A DNA stretch of 52,640 nucleotides from Sphaerisporangium cinnabarinum (GTDB taxonomy: Bacteria; Actinomycetota; Actinomycetes; Actinomycetales; Cellulomonadaceae): assembly GCA_003052455.1 (NCBI GenBank), contig QAPD01000048.1:1-52640 (forward strand). Reading direction: 5' to 3'. Positions within the stretch are counted from its first letter, which is position 1, and each line of letters opens with the position of its first letter. The notes under the pieces are model-generated. The model saw only the letters and a program-made list of their open reading frames with translations, did no database searches and was not told the DNA's origin. Positions 31,599 through 38,248 of this stretch are shown here, piece after piece. A program made the translations under genes and the position numbers.

Positions 31599-32048
31599 GT
31601 GGAGACCGGTATGGGGCGGCTCGTGGGCCGCAGGGTGGCGTGCGCGCTCGTGGGCGCGCTCGTCGGTCTCGTCGGCACGGTCGCGCACCGGGCGCACCTC
31701 CTGGGCGTCGACCTCCCGGGCGGGGCCGGGCTCGGCATCGTGCTCGCCCTGCTGACCGTCCTCGCGGCGGCCACGCTCGCCCGCGCCTGCGGCGGGACGG
31801 CGGGTCTCCTGGGGTTCGGTGTCGGGTGGGTCGTCGTCGTGCAGCTCCTCTCGCTCGAGGGGCCGGGGGGCGACGTGCTCGTGCCGAGCGAGCCCGTCGG
31901 GTACGTGTGGATCTACGGCGGCATGCTCGTGGTCGCCGCGGCGGCCTTCCTGCCCCGGTCGTGGTTCAGCGACCGCCCGGTCCGCACGGCCCAGCACGGG
32001 CGTCCCACCAGGCACGACGGACCCGAGAACCCCCTCGCGTCCCGCTAG
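31599..32048 (+). CDS. Small four-helix membrane protein (DUF6113-like)
   Basis: This 149-residue protein has about four membrane helices: near 12-30 (CALVGALVGLVGTVAH), 40-60, 66-83 and 103-120. A hydrophilic tail with His, Arg and Pro follows. It sits directly after mshB, which is where DUF6113 proteins are often found in actinobacteria; this assignment is from memory and position. No catalytic motif is visible. The GTG at 31599 is 7 bases from TAGCCT, so it is likely leaderless. Its own TAG stop is the start of the next TAGTAT -10 element. Confidence 0.6.
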   Translation: METGMGRLVGRRVACALVGALVGLVGTVAHRAHLLGVDLPGGAGLGIVLALLTVLAAATLARACGGTAGLLGFGVGWVVVVQLLSLEGPGGDVLVPSEPVGYVWIYGGMLVVAAAAFLPRSWFSDRPVRTAQHGRPTRHDGPENPLASR

Positions 32049-32051
32049 TAT
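32046..32051 (+). promoter_or_regulatory. -10 element that includes the preceding stop codon (VanW gene promoter)
   Basis: TAGTAT at 32046-32051 begins with the TAG stop of the upstream gene. It is a near-consensus actinobacterial -10. The VanW ATG is 73 bases downstream and has a GGAGA ribosome site. Confidence 0.6.
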
Positions 32052-32124
32052 TCGCCGTGCGGATCCCCGCACACCCCTCGTCGTCGCGCGGACCGCCGCG
32101 CGCCTTTCGTCACGGAGACAGTGG

Positions 32125-35100
32125 ATGGGTCAGCCGACCGACCGAGACGCCGATCTCGACTCCCCTCAGGACGCCGTGCCGGAGCCCGCCGAGACGGTCG
32201 AGCCCTCGGCTCCCGAGACGGTGCCCGGCCCCGACGCGCAGGCGACCGACGCTCCCGGCGACGTCCCCGCGACCACGCCGACGGACGGACCGGCGGACAC
32301 CGTCCCGGACGCCTCCGCCCCGACCTCGCCCGTGGACCCCGGTCCGGCGGGCGTGGAACCGGTCGAGCCCGGCCCTGCGGCCGAGGACCCCGGCGTGACC
32401 CCGACGGACGACGTGCCGGCCCCCGCGGAACCGCAGGGCACCGCGACCGGGGCTGCGACCGGCACCGACGCGACCGGCACCGCCGCGACCGGCACCGCCG
32501 CGACCACGGGTGACGCACCCGCCGTCGACGCCGCCGCGCAGGATCGCTCGGCGGACGTTCCCTCGGAGCCGGCCGCCGCCCCGGAGCCGGCTGCGACCCC
32601 GCAGCAGGAGTCCGCGCAGCCCGCCGGTGCCTCGGAGCACGGCGCGGTGGCGCCGGACGCAGCGACCCCGACCCCGACGTCGGCCCCGTTCCCGGCCGAC
32701 GCGGACGCGCGTCCGGGTGCCGACGTCTCGACCCCTGCCGCTGCGGCCGACGAGGCTGCCGGGACCGACGCGGCCACCGGTACGGGCGCACTCGCCGGTG
32801 CTGCGGCGAGCCCCGCCGTCGAGCCCGGCGCGGGCACGCGGGCCGAGAGCGGGACGGACGCGTCCGTCGTGGACGCCCCGGCGCCGGACGTGCCGCGGGT
32901 CGACCCCGTCGAGGCGCCCGGCGCGCCGACGCCGACCACCCCCGACGCCACGGTCGCGGACGTGCCGGCGGCCGGCGCTGCCGAGGCCCCGGGGCACGCC
33001 GGCACCGCGGACGACGCCGCCGGCCCGGACGCGCAGGCCGGCGGGTCGGGCAGGACCGACGCCGGTGCGGACGACGGCGACGAGGAGCCGTACGTCCCGC
33101 GCGTGTTCGCGTTCGACCCGAACGTCCCGGCCGTGCTCGTCCCGTCCCCGGGCGCGCAGGCCGATCCCTCGGCCGCCGCGCCGGCGGGCGACGTGGACCA
33201 GGACGCTCCCGCGTCCGACGTCCCGGCGGCCGCGGCCGCGGCCGACGCCACGGCGTCCGGAGCGCCGTCCGCGGGCGGCCCGTCCGACGACGCGATGCCG
33301 ACCGACCGGCCGGCCGCCCCGGCCGGGGGAGACCCGGCCGACGAGCGCGCGGCCGAGCGGACCGCCGTCGTGCCCGTGGTCCCCGCGCAGGAGGGCGACC
33401 AGGGCCGGCCCGCGGACGGGGGGAGCGGCACCGCGCCCGACGCGACGCAGGTGATCCCGCCCGTCGACCCGTGGTCCCGGCCCGCGCCCGTCGTGCGCAC
33501 CTCGATCCTCTCGCCGGCCTCGCCCGACGAGCCCACGGCCGCGGGCCAGATGCCGGACGCTGCCGCTCCTGCGGGTGCCACCGGCCCGGCCGACGGCCCC
33601 GGCACGACCGCGCCGTCGGGCACCGCGGCGACCGCCGCACCCAGCGCGTTCACGCCGGTCCCGCCCGACGACTCGCGCGAGGCCTCTCCCTTCGAGGGCT
33701 TCGACGAGGACGGGCCGCGGCGCGGCTGGGCCCGCGGGCTGCTGTGGACGGGGGTCGCCGTCCTGGTCCTGGGCGGCCTGTACACGGGTGCCCAGTGGTT
33801 CTTCTCCGACAAGGTCCCGAGCGGGACGAGCGTCGCCGGCGTCGACGTCGGGGGCCTGTCCCGGACGGCGGCCGAGGACCGGCTCGAGTCCGAGCTCGGG
33901 CCGCGTGCGGCCGAGCCGATCACCCTCTCGGCGGGTGAGGCGAGCACGACGCTCGACCCGGCGACGGCGGGCCTGACCTTCGACGCCGCGGGGACGGCCG
34001 AGGAGCTCACGTCGTTCTCGATGAACCCGGCGCGCCTCTGGCAGCACCTGTTCGGCGGCAAGGACGCGGAGCCCCTCGTCACGGTCGACGACGCGGCCCT
34101 CGAGGGGCAGGTCGAGGCGTTGCGCGGCACCTTGGAGATCGAGCCCGTGGACGGGGCCGTGCAGTTCGTCGACGGCGCGCCCACGAGCACGCCGGCCGCC
34201 GACGGCTCGGCGCTGGTCACCGACGAGGTGCCCGCGACCATCACGGAGAGCTGGCTCGTCACCGACGGCCCGGTCGAGCTGCCCACCGAGCCCGTCGAGC
34301 CCACGATCACGCAGGACGAGACGGACGCCGCGCTCGCCCTGGCGGAAAAGGTCGTGTCCGCGCCCGTCGTCGTGTCCGTCGGCGGCCAGTCGCCCGAGCT
34401 GCCCCCCGAGGCGCTCGCGGCGGCGGCCTCCTTCGCGGCGACGGACGGCGTCCTCACGCTGACCTTCGACGGTCCGGCGCTGGTCCAGTCCGTGGTCGAC
34501 CGGACGAACGACCTGCTCACCGCGGCGGACGACGCGCACTTCGTCTTCCGCGACGGCGCGCCGGTCATCGAGGGGGGCGAGCCCGGCACGACGATCGACC
34601 CGACCGCCATCGCGACGGCCGTCACGACGGCCGCCTCGGGCGACGAGCGCACGGTCACGGTCGATCTCGTCGAGTCGGACCCGGAGCAGTCCGTCGCGGC
34701 GCTCGAGGCGCTGGGGATCAAGGAGAAGGTGTCGGAGTTCTCGACGGTCGTGCCCAACGTCCCCGTCCGCACCGCGAACCTGCAGCGGGGGGCGGAGAAG
34801 GTGAACGGGACCCTCGTCAAGCCGGGGGAGACCTTCTCCCTCGTCGACACGCTGTCGCCCATCACGCTCGAGGGCGGCTACTTCGCGGCCGGCATCGTCG
34901 AGAGCGGGCGCCACACCGAGGGCGTCGGCGGCGGGCTGTCGCAGATGGCCACGACCACGTACAACGCGGGCTTCTTCGCGGGGCTCGAGGACGTCGAGCA
35001 CCGGCCGCACAGCTACTGGTTCGAGCGCTACCCGGCGGGTCGCGAGGCGACGATCTTCGTCGGGTCGATCGACATGAAGTTCAAGAACGACACCCCGTAC

Positions 35101-35376
35101 GGCGTCCTCATGCAGTCCTGGGTCGGCGGCGGTCAGCTGCACGTCGCGATCTGGAGCACCAAGTACTACGACGTCGAGACGTCGTCGAGCGGCAAGTCGA
35201 ACGTGGTCCAGCCGACGACCGTCACGCACTCGGGCGCGGACTGCGCCCCGACGCCCGCGGGCAGCCCCGGCTTCTCCATCACGAACTACCGCAAGGTCTA
35301 CCGCGAGGGCGAGCTCGTCAAGGACGAGTCCTACCGGTGGACCTACAAGCCGGACAACGCGGTCGTCTGCGAGTAG
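32125..35376 (+). CDS. VanW-family cell-wall protein with a giant disordered N-terminus
   Basis: This 1083-residue protein has three parts. Residues 1 to about 530 are an acidic Ala/Pro/Thr/Asp-rich, probably disordered region with short repeats. One membrane helix follows at about 537-558 (LLWTGVAVLVLGGLYTGAQWF). The extracellular part has peptidoglycan-binding-like repeats around 575-860, typical of PG_binding_4 domains, then a VanW domain from about 870 (VRTANLQRGAEKVNGTLVKPGETFSL) to 1010. The last Cys-containing segment ends in CE. VanW proteins occur in glycopeptide resistance clusters, but most are general wall proteins. The disordered half would be cytosolic. The ATG at 32125 has GGAGA upstream; the frame is open further upstream, but that DNA belongs to the previous gene. 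Confidence 0.85.
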   Translation: MGQPTDRDADLDSPQDAVPEPAETVEPSAPETVPGPDAQATDAPGDVPATTPTDGPADTVPDASAPTSPVDPGPAGVEPVEPGPAAEDPGVTPTDDVPAPAEPQGTATGAATGTDATGTAATGTAATTGDAPAVDAAAQDRSADVPSEPAAAPEPAATPQQESAQPAGASEHGAVAPDAATPTPTSAPFPADADARPGADVSTPAAAADEAAGTDAATGTGALAGAAASPAVEPGAGTRAESGTDASVVDAPAPDVPRVDPVEAPGAPTPTTPDATVADVPAAGAAEAPGHAGTADDAAGPDAQAGGSGRTDAGADDGDEEPYVPRVFAFDPNVPAVLVPSPGAQADPSAAAPAGDVDQDAPASDVPAAAAAADATASGAPSAGGPSDDAMPTDRPAAPAGGDPADERAAERTAVVPVVPAQEGDQGRPADGGSGTAPDATQVIPPVDPWSRPAPVVRTSILSPASPDEPTAAGQMPDAAAPAGATGPADGPGTTAPSGTAATAAPSAFTPVPPDDSREASPFEGFDEDGPRRGWARGLLWTGVAVLVLGGLYTGAQWFFSDKVPSGTSVAGVDVGGLSRTAAEDRLESELGPRAAEPITLSAGEASTTLDPATAGLTFDAAGTAEELTSFSMNPARLWQHLFGGKDAEPLVTVDDAALEGQVEALRGTLEIEPVDGAVQFVDGAPTSTPAADGSALVTDEVPATITESWLVTDGPVELPTEPVEPTITQDETDAALALAEKVVSAPVVVSVGGQSPELPPEALAAAASFAATDGVLTLTFDGPALVQSVVDRTNDLLTAADDAHFVFRDGAPVIEGGEPGTTIDPTAIATAVTTAASGDERTVTVDLVESDPEQSVAALEALGIKEKVSEFSTVVPNVPVRTANLQRGAEKVNGTLVKPGETFSLVDTLSPITLEGGYFAAGIVESGRHTEGVGGGLSQMATTTYNAGFFAGLEDVEHRPHSYWFERYPAGREATIFVGSIDMKFKNDTPYGVLMQSWVGGGQLHVAIWSTKYYDVETSSSGKSNVVQPTTVTHSGADCAPTPAGSPGFSITNYRKVYREGELVKDESYRWTYKPDNAVVCE
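32455..32505 (+). repeat. 15-bp tandem repeat within the VanW disordered region
   Basis: The unit GCGACCGGCACCGCC (first copy ends in GAC) occurs 3.4 times. It encodes ATGTA-type pentapeptides. The unit length is a multiple of three, so copy change would alter length without breaking the frame. Confidence 0.85.
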
Positions 35377-35406
35377 GCCGGCCCACCCACACACCACGGA
35401 GGTCCC

Positions 35407-36306
35407 ATGCTCGGACGCAGCGAACGGGAGTCGGGAGCGCAGGCGCTGCTCGCGGCCACGGCGGCGGGATGGGTCGACGGCGACCCGACGGAGGCGCTGC
35501 TCGACCTCGGGTCGACGACGGCGACGCTGTCGACCGTCGCGAGCATCGACGCGCTGGCCGCCGTCGTGCACCTGGGCCACCCCGCGCAGCCGTCGCACGA
35601 GCTCGAGCGCGCGCTGCTCGCGGCGCCGCCGTCGCTCGTGCTGACCGGCGCGTCGGCGGTGCCGTCGCAGTGGGTCTGGGTCGGCCGGTCGACGGCGGCC
35701 CGCGACCTGACGGGGCACGTCGTCGTCGACGAGGCGGGCATGCGCGACCGGCGCCACGTGCTGCGCACGATGGGTGTCAGCCCGTCGCTCGTCCCGACCC
35801 GGACCACGCTGGAGGAGCGCGTCGCGCTCGCCGGCGCCGACGGCAGCCTCGTCGTGGAGCGCTCGGTGGCCCACGGGCCGCTCGCCGCGCTCGGCTACGC
35901 AGAGCTCCCGGGCAGCGAGCTCCTCGGGGAGGGCGCGCCCGTCTGGTACGGCCTCCTGGAGAGCCGCGACGCGGCGCCTCGGGCCGAGGGCGTCGCCCAG
36001 GTGTGGCTCGCGTTCGGTCCCCGGGACGACCACCGCGGCTCGCTCCAGGAGACGCTCGCGCTGGTCGCCGCCGCCGGGATCGACCTGCAGCACCTGCGCA
36101 GCCACCGCTCGCAGGCCGGACCGCACATCTTCTTCTGCGCGTTCTCGTGCCCCGACGCGACGACGCTCGACGGCCTCGTCGCGGGGTTCGGCGAGCGGGG
36201 CGTCGCGCACCGGGTCCTCGCGGTCCTGCCCGGGCAGGAGTTCGTGCCCGGCCCCGACGCGCTCGAGCCGCGCTGGGCGACCGCCCCTGACCCCGTCCAC
36301 GCGTGA
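35407..36306 (+). CDS. ACT-domain protein coupled to pheA, possible prephenate dehydratase pseudoenzyme
   Basis: This 299-residue soluble protein has a C-terminal ACT domain at about 195-275. GSLQETLALVAAAGIDLQHL and the next RSHRSQAGPHIFFCAF align by eye with the ACT domain of prephenate dehydratases, where the phenylalanine motif is usually ESRP; here it reads RSHR. The first 190 residues have alternating strands and helices like a periplasmic-binding fold. They lack the dehydratase motifs GPxGTFS and TRF, so catalysis is unlikely. The stop overlaps the pheA GTG by four bases. GGAGG precedes the ATG. A regulatory subunit for aromatic amino-acid synthesis is the best inference; the family is not one I can name. 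Confidence 0.6.
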   Translation: MLGRSERESGAQALLAATAAGWVDGDPTEALLDLGSTTATLSTVASIDALAAVVHLGHPAQPSHELERALLAAPPSLVLTGASAVPSQWVWVGRSTAARDLTGHVVVDEAGMRDRRHVLRTMGVSPSLVPTRTTLEERVALAGADGSLVVERSVAHGPLAALGYAELPGSELLGEGAPVWYGLLESRDAAPRAEGVAQVWLAFGPRDDHRGSLQETLALVAAAGIDLQHLRSHRSQAGPHIFFCAFSCPDATTLDGLVAGFGERGVAHRVLAVLPGQEFVPGPDALEPRWATAPDPVHA

Positions 36307-37250
36307 GCGTCGGGTACCTCGGCCCCGAGGGGTCGTTCACCCACCAGGCGGCGGCCGCGTGGTCGTCGGCGCACGGCCGGACCGGGCTCGGGCTCGCGGC
36401 GCGCACGACCGTCGCGGACGTCTTCGCGGGCGTGGCCGCGGGCGAGCACGAGCGGGGCGTCGTCGCGATCGAGAACACGGTCGAGGGGTACGTGGTGCCC
36501 TCGCTCGACGCGATCGTCGGGAGCGCCAGCGTCGTCGCCGTCGACGAGGTCGTGCTCGACATCTCGTTCGACGCGTTCGCGCGCCCGGGCCACGGCGAGC
36601 TCACCGAGGTCACCGCGCACCCGCACGGCCTCGCGCAGTGCCAGGGCTTCGTGCGCCGGACGGACCTCGCGCCGGTCGCGGCGTCGTCGAACGCCGCAGC
36701 GTGCCGTGACGCCGGGCCGCACCAGGTCGCCCTCGGCCCGACGATCTGCGGCGAGCTCTACGGCCTGGAGACGGTCGAGCGCGCGGTCGAGGACTTCGCG
36801 GGCGCGCGCACCCGGTTCCTCGTGCTGGCGCCGCGCGCGGAGGCCGCCGCGGCGCTCGGCCGGGCACGGGGTCGCGGCGAGACGTCGTGGCGCACGATGC
36901 TCGCGGTGACGCCCGTCGTCACGGGACCCGGCGTGCTGGCGCGCATCACGCAGGCCTTCGGCGCGCGGGGCGTCAACCTGTCGAGCCTCATCACGCGACC
37001 GCTCAAGGCCGTCGCGGGGACGTACGTCTTCGTCCTCACCGTCGACGGCGCACCGTGGGACGCGCCGGTGCGCGCCGTCCTGGAGGACCTCGTCCGGGCC
37101 GGGGACGCGCTCAAGACGCTCGGGGTCGTGCCGGCGCGCGGCGAGCTCGACGAGTCGGTCCACGCCGACGTCGACGCCGCGCACGTCCCGGTCGGGAGCG
37201 TCGACGCGTCGACCGGCACGGCGGACCGCGCGACAGGGCTCCTGTGGTGA
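36303..37250 (+). CDS. pheA: Prephenate dehydratase
   Basis: This 315-residue enzyme converts prephenate to phenylpyruvate for phenylalanine synthesis. The N-terminal motif GYLGPEGSFTHQAA and the segment VVAIENTVEGYVVPSLD form the active site. The catalytic TRF motif occurs in GARTRFLVL at about 168. A C-terminal ACT domain at about 195-280 carries VNLSSLITRPLK where ESRP is usual, so feedback binding may differ. The last 30 residues are an extra tail. GTGA overlaps join it to the ACT-domain gene upstream and to tyrA downstream, so the three are translated together. Confidence 0.93.
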   Translation: MSVGYLGPEGSFTHQAAAAWSSAHGRTGLGLAARTTVADVFAGVAAGEHERGVVAIENTVEGYVVPSLDAIVGSASVVAVDEVVLDISFDAFARPGHGELTEVTAHPHGLAQCQGFVRRTDLAPVAASSNAAACRDAGPHQVALGPTICGELYGLETVERAVEDFAGARTRFLVLAPRAEAAAALGRARGRGETSWRTMLAVTPVVTGPGVLARITQAFGARGVNLSSLITRPLKAVAGTYVFVLTVDGAPWDAPVRAVLEDLVRAGDALKTLGVVPARGELDESVHADVDAAHVPVGSVDASTGTADRATGLLW

Positions 37251-38248
37251 CCGCCGCGGGAGCCGTGCCGGAGCCGGGCGCGCCGCGCCCGGTGGTCCGG
37301 GTCGGCGTCGTCGGCCTCGGGCTCGTCGGCGGCTCGGTCGCGCGGCTCCTGCACGAGGAGGGCGTCGAGGTGACCGGCTACGACGCCACGGCGACCACGC
37401 GCGCGGCGGCGCGGGCCGCGGGGCTCCGGGTCGTCGGCGACGTCGCGGAGGTCTGCGCCGAGGAGCCGGACGTCCTCGTGCTCGCCGTGCCCCTGCGCGC
37501 CATGCGGGCGGTCGCGACCGACGTCGCCCGGCACGTGCGGGGCGCGACGGTCGTCACGGACGTCGGCAGCGTCAAGGGCGCGGTGCGCGACGCCGTCCGG
37601 GCGGCCGGGCTCGACGCCCGGTACGTCGGGGCGCACCCCATGGCCGGGACCGAGCACTCGGGCTTCGAGGCGTCCGACCCGGCGATGCTCGCGGGCGCGC
37701 GCTGGGCCGTGACGGTGGACGCCAGCACGCGGCCGGATGCGTTCACGGCCGTGCTGCGGCTCGTCATGGGCCCGCTCGGCGGCACGGTGCACGTGCTCAC
37801 CGACGACGTCCACGACGAGTCCACCGCGCTCGTCAGCCACGTCCCGCACGTGCTGGCCACCGAGCTCCTGGGCGTCGTCGCCGACGCCCCCGTGCGCGAC
37901 GTCGCGCTGGGGCTCGCCGCGGGCAGCTTCCGCGACGCGACGCGCGTGGGGCGCACCGACCCGCGCCGGACCGAGGCCATGGTCACGGACAACGCCGCCT
38001 GGGTGGCGTCCGCGCTGCGCGTCGTCGTGCGCGACCTCGAGCAGCTCGTCCGCGCGCTCGAGTCCAACGCGCCCGTGGGCGAGTTCTTCGACCGGCCCGA
38101 CCCGGTGCGGGCCGCGGCAGGCGGCACCGGCGAGCCCGTGCGCGTCGACCTCGACGACGCGGGCACCTGGCGCGAGACCCTCACGGCGGCCGGGGCACGG
38201 GGCGCCGTCGTCGTGGGCGTCGAGGACCGGGCGGTCGTCGTCGCCTGA
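37247..38248 (+). CDS. tyrA: Prephenate dehydrogenase
   Basis: This 333-residue NAD(P)-dependent enzyme makes 4-hydroxyphenylpyruvate for tyrosine. The Rossmann motif VGVVGLGLVGGSVARLL begins at about residue 19. The family sequences DVGSVKGAV and HPMAGTEHSGFEAS follow, with the catalytic His in the latter region. DDVHDESTALVSHVPHVLA and the helical dimer region complete the fold. The final 70 residues may form a small extra domain, possibly ACT-like (VRVDLDDAGTWRETLTAAGARG). The GTG at 37247 overlaps the pheA stop. A terminator hairpin follows. Confidence 0.92.
   Translation: MTAAGAVPEPGAPRPVVRVGVVGLGLVGGSVARLLHEEGVEVTGYDATATTRAAARAAGLRVVGDVAEVCAEEPDVLVLAVPLRAMRAVATDVARHVRGATVVTDVGSVKGAVRDAVRAAGLDARYVGAHPMAGTEHSGFEASDPAMLAGARWAVTVDASTRPDAFTAVLRLVMGPLGGTVHVLTDDVHDESTALVSHVPHVLATELLGVVADAPVRDVALGLAAGSFRDATRVGRTDPRRTEAMVTDNAAWVASALRVVVRDLEQLVRALESNAPVGEFFDRPDPVRAAAGGTGEPVRVDLDDAGTWRETLTAAGARGAVVVGVEDRAVVVA

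Follow-up and report, generated by a model that had tools for sequence, protein, structure and literature searches.

We analysed 52,640 nucleotides of Sphaerisporangium cinnabarinum DNA (contig QAPD01000048.1), hereafter the window, which carries a three-gene cassette. Its first gene, here called reg, is followed by pheA and tyrA. Alignment and the predicted fold support Reg as a pseudoenzyme that is dead as a prephenate dehydratase (PDT). We give an even chance to the reading that Reg is a PDT paralogue which regulates the neighbouring enzymes as a non-catalytic subunit.

The three cassette genes, the motifs within them and the likely ribosome-binding site lie on the forward strand. The reg gene (35407..36306) starts with ATG, encodes 299 amino acids and is preceded by a likely ribosome-binding site (GGAGGT, 35398..35403, by eye). 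The pheA gene (36303..37250) encodes a prephenate dehydratase, and tyrA (37247..38248) a prephenate/arogenate dehydrogenase without an ACT domain by Pfam. The GTG start of pheA (36303) overlaps the reg stop via GTGA, and the GTG start of tyrA (37247) overlaps the pheA stop in the same way. A first-pass annotation of this DNA had described the reg frame and both overlaps, and the sequence confirmed them.

The two-lobed PDT-like domain of Reg (residues 1–190, 35407..35976) lacks the PDT catalytic triad, as judged from the structure model, its fold matches and a residue comparison. In PDTs, substrate binding and catalysis depend critically on the TRF triad, according to the available portions of PMC10845154. 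A joint MAFFT alignment was made of 49 Regs, 26 cassette-type PheAs (25 from genomes with reg and 1 from family f4) and 26 canonical-group PheAs. TRF was present in 26/26 canonical PheAs, and the cassette PheAs had T, R/Q/D and F (R in 24/26); the triad of the window PheA is intact (36810..36818). Reg had [VLI]-W-[YF] in 49/49 sequences; the first-pass annotation had noted that the window Reg lacks the dehydratase motifs. In the window the triad position is occupied by VWY (residues 179–181, 35941..35949) in the MAFFT alignment and by WYG (residues 180–182) in an ungapped reading by eye, and neither contains threonine. The PheA residues E57, G62, H106 and Q112 were replaced in Reg by G (46/49), P (49/49), D (49/49) and D (49/49). 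The S11 and T13 rows were not used, the first turn of Reg (GRSERES) having aligned with a gap. For the E. coli PDT, the available portions of PMC8192741 assign a role in catalysis to four residues and one in substrate binding to two glutamates. The conserved residues of Reg's own include D108, E109, R113, D114, R138, E151 and W180, which were invariant both in 30 and in 49 sequences.

The ACT domain of Reg (residues 196–276, 35992..36234) is also altered. GAL and ESRP are given as the ligand motifs of PDT-type ACT domains in the available portions of PMC10845154. Reg had G-S-L in 49/49 at the GAL position and R in 49/49 at the ESRP glutamate position, and therefore has neither motif. The ESRP position of the window Reg is occupied by RSHR (residues 231–234, 36097..36108), whose first R and S were invariant in 49/49, and that of the window PheA by ITRP (36990..37001). 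The alignment bears out the earlier assignment of both variants. Of the 26 canonical-group PheAs, 25 have the glutamate and one has Q. In the cassette-type PheAs this position holds I, V, F or M (26/26), and one of them has E one column later.

Reg is predicted to have the PDT and ACT folds. Structure-model comparison showed that the closest solved folds of the N-terminal part are PDTs themselves, which sharpens the binding-protein-like fold proposed in the first-pass annotation; a match of this region to an unrelated enzyme family, which that annotation had named as the outcome against its proposal, did not appear. Reg thus has an enzyme-like fold without the catalytic residues, as expected of a pseudoenzyme. 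HHalign of the ACT parts gave 92% (E 6.5e-7) for Reg against cassette PheA and 89% (E 2.2e-6) against canonical PheA. The ACT domain of Reg also matched that of PDB 4lub (E 0.007), which supports homology to known PDT ACT domains. Reg differs from the PDTs (PheA; PDB 3mwb, 2qmw, 2qmx, 4lub and 6vh5) in having no PDT match (PF00800) in Pfam at E ≤ 10, in the replacement of TRF and other conserved positions, and in RSHR for ESRP. Its Pfam matches were ACT (PF01842) with 14.6 bits at residues 208–244, below the 27-bit gathering cut-off, and DUF5936 with 14.1 bits, also below the cut-off. The window PheA scored 127 bits for PDT and 30 bits for ACT, both above the cut-off. The single NCBIfam match of Reg was a weak one to phenylalanine 4-monooxygenase (12.2 bits) over the ACT part. 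Pfam and NCBIfam leave Reg unnamed at their cut-offs, and it gains a function hypothesis here.

Two short peptide patterns, which distant relatives could escape, were used to scan a single genome of each species and yielded 75 reg loci. They were found in Cellulosimicrobium, Oerskovia, Promicromonospora, Isoptericola, Sanguibacter and their neighbours, and in Jonesia, Rarobacter, Timonella, one 'Cellulomonas sp.' and metagenome-assembled genomes (MAGs). The nearest named locus to that of the window is from C. funkei (99%, L032), whose genus Cellulosimicrobium is placed in the Promicromonosporaceae by NCBI. The gene after reg was pheA in 75/75 loci, with a 4-base overlap in 51/75, a spacing of −16 to +60 bases in 23 and a broken pheA frame in L061; pheA reaches the contig end in L056 and L063. 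The tyrA gene followed in 71/75 loci, including L052 and L061 with an intervening broken frame. Among the other four, L050 has an N gap inside tyrA, L056 and L063 end earlier, and L105 had no tyrA match. Reg is thus encoded with its putative catalytic partner, the genome G219 (below) being the exception. This gene order, together with the co-occurrence of reg with one PheA type, supports the earlier claim that reg is dedicated to the phenylalanine/tyrosine (Phe/Tyr) branch.

A profile search of the family to which the window belongs (f1) found reg in 103/221 genomes and in 18/25 genera; the genome count becomes 104/221 with the partial match of G107 (E 4.9e-4). In the order, reg was found in 19/396 sampled genomes, all 19 in f1, or in 25/396 with the partial matches of G107, G096, G305, G467, G475 and G492 (E 2.8e-4 to 0.0076). 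A separate protein search found it in 31/59, all f1. The median ratio of nonsynonymous to synonymous substitution rates (dN/dS), computed with our own NG86 script for 28 pairs from 8 Cellulosimicrobium loci, was 0.226 for reg, 0.225 for pheA and 0.246 for tyrA, so the constraint on reg is comparable to that on pheA. The presence of reg in nearly half of the family and its low dN/dS within Cellulosimicrobium indicate that it is not a chance open reading frame (ORF). Alternatively, reg might be what remains of an ancient dehydratase gene that no longer functions, and the loss of TRF and other PDT positions and the few split or shortened copies fit such an origin. However, dN/dS is as low as that of pheA, 98/103 genomes have a single (near) full-length match, and many residues are invariant across 18 genera. 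The dN/dS and this conservation nearly refute the relic explanation, which we regard as extremely improbable.

The genomes with reg carry a particular type of PheA. In f1, 102/103 of them encode a PheA that shares 46% identity or more with that of the window, G219 being the exception. The f1 genomes without reg had a PheA match in 114/118 cases (best E 1.7e-28, identities up to 37% among the matches listed) and no match in 4. PF00800 was found in 26/27 genomes without reg that were searched, and 26 PheAs from 25 such genomes were 28–34% identical to the window PheA, with no tyrA match in the flanking DNA (roughly 1.5 kb or shorter); the PheA of the remaining genome, G055, is of the cassette type (below). 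A further PheA type was seen in two genomes of the order, G048 and G041 (L107 and L108), with the start QGEPG[SA]NSD and ESY for ESR, forming a separate group in the tree.

The TyrAs were also compared. A set of 18 sequences (17 genes) was extracted, of which 10 were scanned for ACT, plus the window TyrA. A C-terminal ACT match was found in 6/6 TyrAs from genomes without reg and with canonical PheA (five f1, one f2), with E 6.6e-6 to 0.0057, all below the Pfam cut-off. No ACT match was found in the five cassette-type TyrAs (the window, two with reg, two from f4).

In the order sample, PheA matches at E ≤ 1e-30 came from f1 (19), f4 (29) and f11 (one, 37%); the profile search of this sample found no reg in f4. 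The f4 genome G055 has a cassette-type PheA (45%) and TyrA (42% identical to that of the window) behind DUF6113, with neither reg nor VanW in the examined stretch. The gene order in f4 (G055 and G297) is DUF6113-pheA-tyrA, with ferredoxin on a different contig in G055. A solved relative of cassette PheA is PDB 3luy from Bifidobacterium adolescentis, so f4 is probably the Bifidobacteriaceae. PDB 3luy is titled a putative chorismate mutase, but its sequence places it with cassette PheA and not with Reg; the available portions of PMC8192741 call it a PDT.

VanW lay directly before reg in 14/14 loci with reg that were checked, and a ferredoxin match lay further downstream in 11/14, with none in the examined stretch of the other three. 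In 6/6 of the f1 genomes compared that lack reg and gave a ferredoxin locus, the order was VanW-ferredoxin-dapC without the three cassette genes. In this comparison G017 had no ferredoxin match, and the second ferredoxins of G028 and G067 yielded no locus. The comparison of sites shows that reg, pheA and tyrA are present or absent as a block in f1. We infer that pheA-tyrA is older and that reg was added later.

Reg as a regulatory subunit, possibly sensing another amino acid, as the first-pass annotation suggested, is plausible and our best guess from the sequences and the model. Reg would join PheA and/or TyrA in a hetero-oligomer, replacing one PDT of a PDT-like assembly. Its ACT domain (GSL...HLRS) may bind an amino acid other than the one bound at the canonical GAL/ESRP site, or bind it differently. 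Because PheA has an ACT domain without the ESRP glutamate and TyrA has no ACT domain, end-product sensing may have shifted at least partly from the enzymes to Reg. The most economical reading would be that Reg, with a ligand site of its own, tunes PheA and perhaps TyrA. In PDTs, open and closed forms are shifted by phenylalanine bound at the dimer's ACT interface (PMC8192741, available portions). A wider role, which we hold only tentatively, is a prephenate branch-point complex in which Reg would be the shared allosteric hub of PheA and TyrA, sensing either end product or the two together, perhaps also prephenate in a re-fitted cleft, and setting the Phe/Tyr split.

HisZ, a paralogue of histidyl-tRNA synthetase, offers the nearest comparison in mode, though not in family. 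It enhances the catalytic subunit HisG_S and mediates histidine inhibition of ATP phosphoribosyltransferase (PMC9734150, available portions). The Reg complex is proposed from genes and a predicted fold, and Reg, unlike HisZ, has the fold of the adjoining enzyme. IlvN/IlvH are separate ACT regulatory subunits of acetohydroxyacid synthase. Like them, Reg is an ACT protein encoded beside an enzyme; it has in addition a whole pseudo-PDT domain. None of the papers listed in a literature search, many of them judged by title and opening of the abstract, deals with a PDT pseudoenzyme regulator, and as most subscription journals lay outside that search, absence is unproven. If Reg acts as proposed, Phe/Tyr feedback control in this group of soil actinobacteria would reside at least partly in a separate pseudoenzyme and not only in the ACT domains of the enzymes, and aromatic amino acid synthesis would join the pathways regulated by a catalytically dead enzyme look-alike. 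The three-gene system is small enough to be rebuilt and tested in E. coli.

The residues that Reg has gained could also belong to a new enzyme on the PDT scaffold, with the cleft re-fitted (E8, S9, D108, E109, R113, D114, R138, E151 and W180) for another substrate of the same pathway, which would account for its place in the operon. All nine residues were invariant in 30 sequences; in 49, each was either invariant or conserved in no less than 90%. D108, E109, D114 and W180 fall at the PheA columns H106, P107, Q112 and R171, the remaining residues being matched by an ungapped reading by eye, and we take the conserved columns to line the PDT cleft. Phe/Tyr synthesis has no evident missing step for such an enzyme, and a ligand-sensing subunit would be equally expected to conserve cleft residues. 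The acylase/PDT GqqA (PDB 7am0 and 7alz) shares a PDT scaffold and an altered cleft with Reg, and the available portions of PMC8192741 describe its gained acylase activity. However, GqqA retains PDT activity and, by the same source, complements an E. coli pheA mutant; Reg, by contrast, has no TRF triad. We consider a new enzyme unlikely.

G219 (genus g7, Promicromonospora group, one contig) bears on the choice of partner. At its locus L156 (C1:2611000-2620000), pheA is gone from between reg and tyrA, and there was no pheA match within 9 kb around the pair. Both reg (279 codons) and tyrA (345 codons) are intact, 43 bases separate the reg stop from tyrA, and reg had a dN/dS of 0.12–0.19 against nine congeners. 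One frame of the 43-base gap gives R-G-L-L-R-stop, which by eye looks like the terminal GLLW of PheA with its W altered. A second TyrA-PheA pair (30% and 39% identity) lies elsewhere in the genome (L155, C1:1766638-1768471). G219 shows that reg can persist without a neighbouring PheA, for some time at least. Reg might therefore be mainly a partner of TyrA, as a regulator or stabiliser supplying the missing ACT sensor, with PheA incidental. The two f1 cassette TyrAs scanned and the window TyrA have no ACT match and the canonical ones do, which fits this explanation. But G219 is a single genome whose deletion may be recent, its other TyrA-PheA pair could be the target of Reg, the fold of Reg is that of PDT and not of TyrA, and the f4 TyrAs lack ACT and yet have no reg. 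A role mainly with TyrA is thus rather doubtful. As a side observation, a further PheA-like gene (35–39% identical) occurs in three Promicromonospora-group genomes (G219, G214 and G223); that of G214 has internal stops, and that of G219 adjoins the second tyrA-like gene.

The gene neighbourhood alone does not identify the partner, and Reg could sense an amino acid or intermediate and act elsewhere, for example on 3-deoxy-D-arabino-heptulosonate 7-phosphate synthase or chorismate mutase, its operon position serving only co-expression. PheA is the likelier partner in view of the PDT fold of Reg and the overlap of the two genes, and we judge an action elsewhere improbable.

Several points weigh against a regulatory subunit, particularly in the simple form first proposed. 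In family f4, pheA-tyrA of the cassette type occurs in the absence of reg, the PheA lacking the ESRP glutamate (G055) and the TyrAs showing no ACT match (G055 and G297). The cassette enzymes can therefore work without Reg, which counts against an obligate role, and the shift of sensing probably predates reg. G219 keeps reg and tyrA after the loss of pheA, with TyrA or the second PheA left as candidate partners. The co-occurrence of reg with one PheA type may go back to one common inheritance rather than to repeated independent events. Taken by itself, the PDT part of Reg is unrecognisable by sequence, with HHalign E of 0.025 against the canonical and 0.33 against the cassette PDT domain and no significant hmmsearch score. 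The gene is split or shortened in some genomes, with two matches in 5/103 (G014, G192, G233, G236 and G240) and a shorter frame in L099 and L105. The new invariant residues could, finally, mark an enzyme rather than a subunit.

The genes 5′ of reg in the window are a PIG-L family (MshB-like) gene, DUF6113 and the VanW gene, whose stop lies 30 bases from reg. The VanW-like protein (31819-35376) has a long Ala/Pro/Thr-rich stretch preceding the folded part; its true start is unsure, and the ORF overlaps DUF6113. The cassette is followed by a ferredoxin gene and a class I/II aminotransferase gene, which we take to be dapC-like. L105 (6001-7300, a Cellulomonadaceae bacterium MAG) had no matches for Reg residues 81–179, for PheA beyond residue 176 or for TyrA, which looks like decay of the whole cassette. 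Cassette-type PheA has an invariant LLW at or near its C-terminus (37239-37247, PheA residues 313–315), found in 30/30 sequences of one set, in 25/25 of another and in G055, and retained where further residues follow. The PheA model places a helix at residues 306–312, immediately before LLW, and this end could possibly be a docking tail, perhaps for TyrA.
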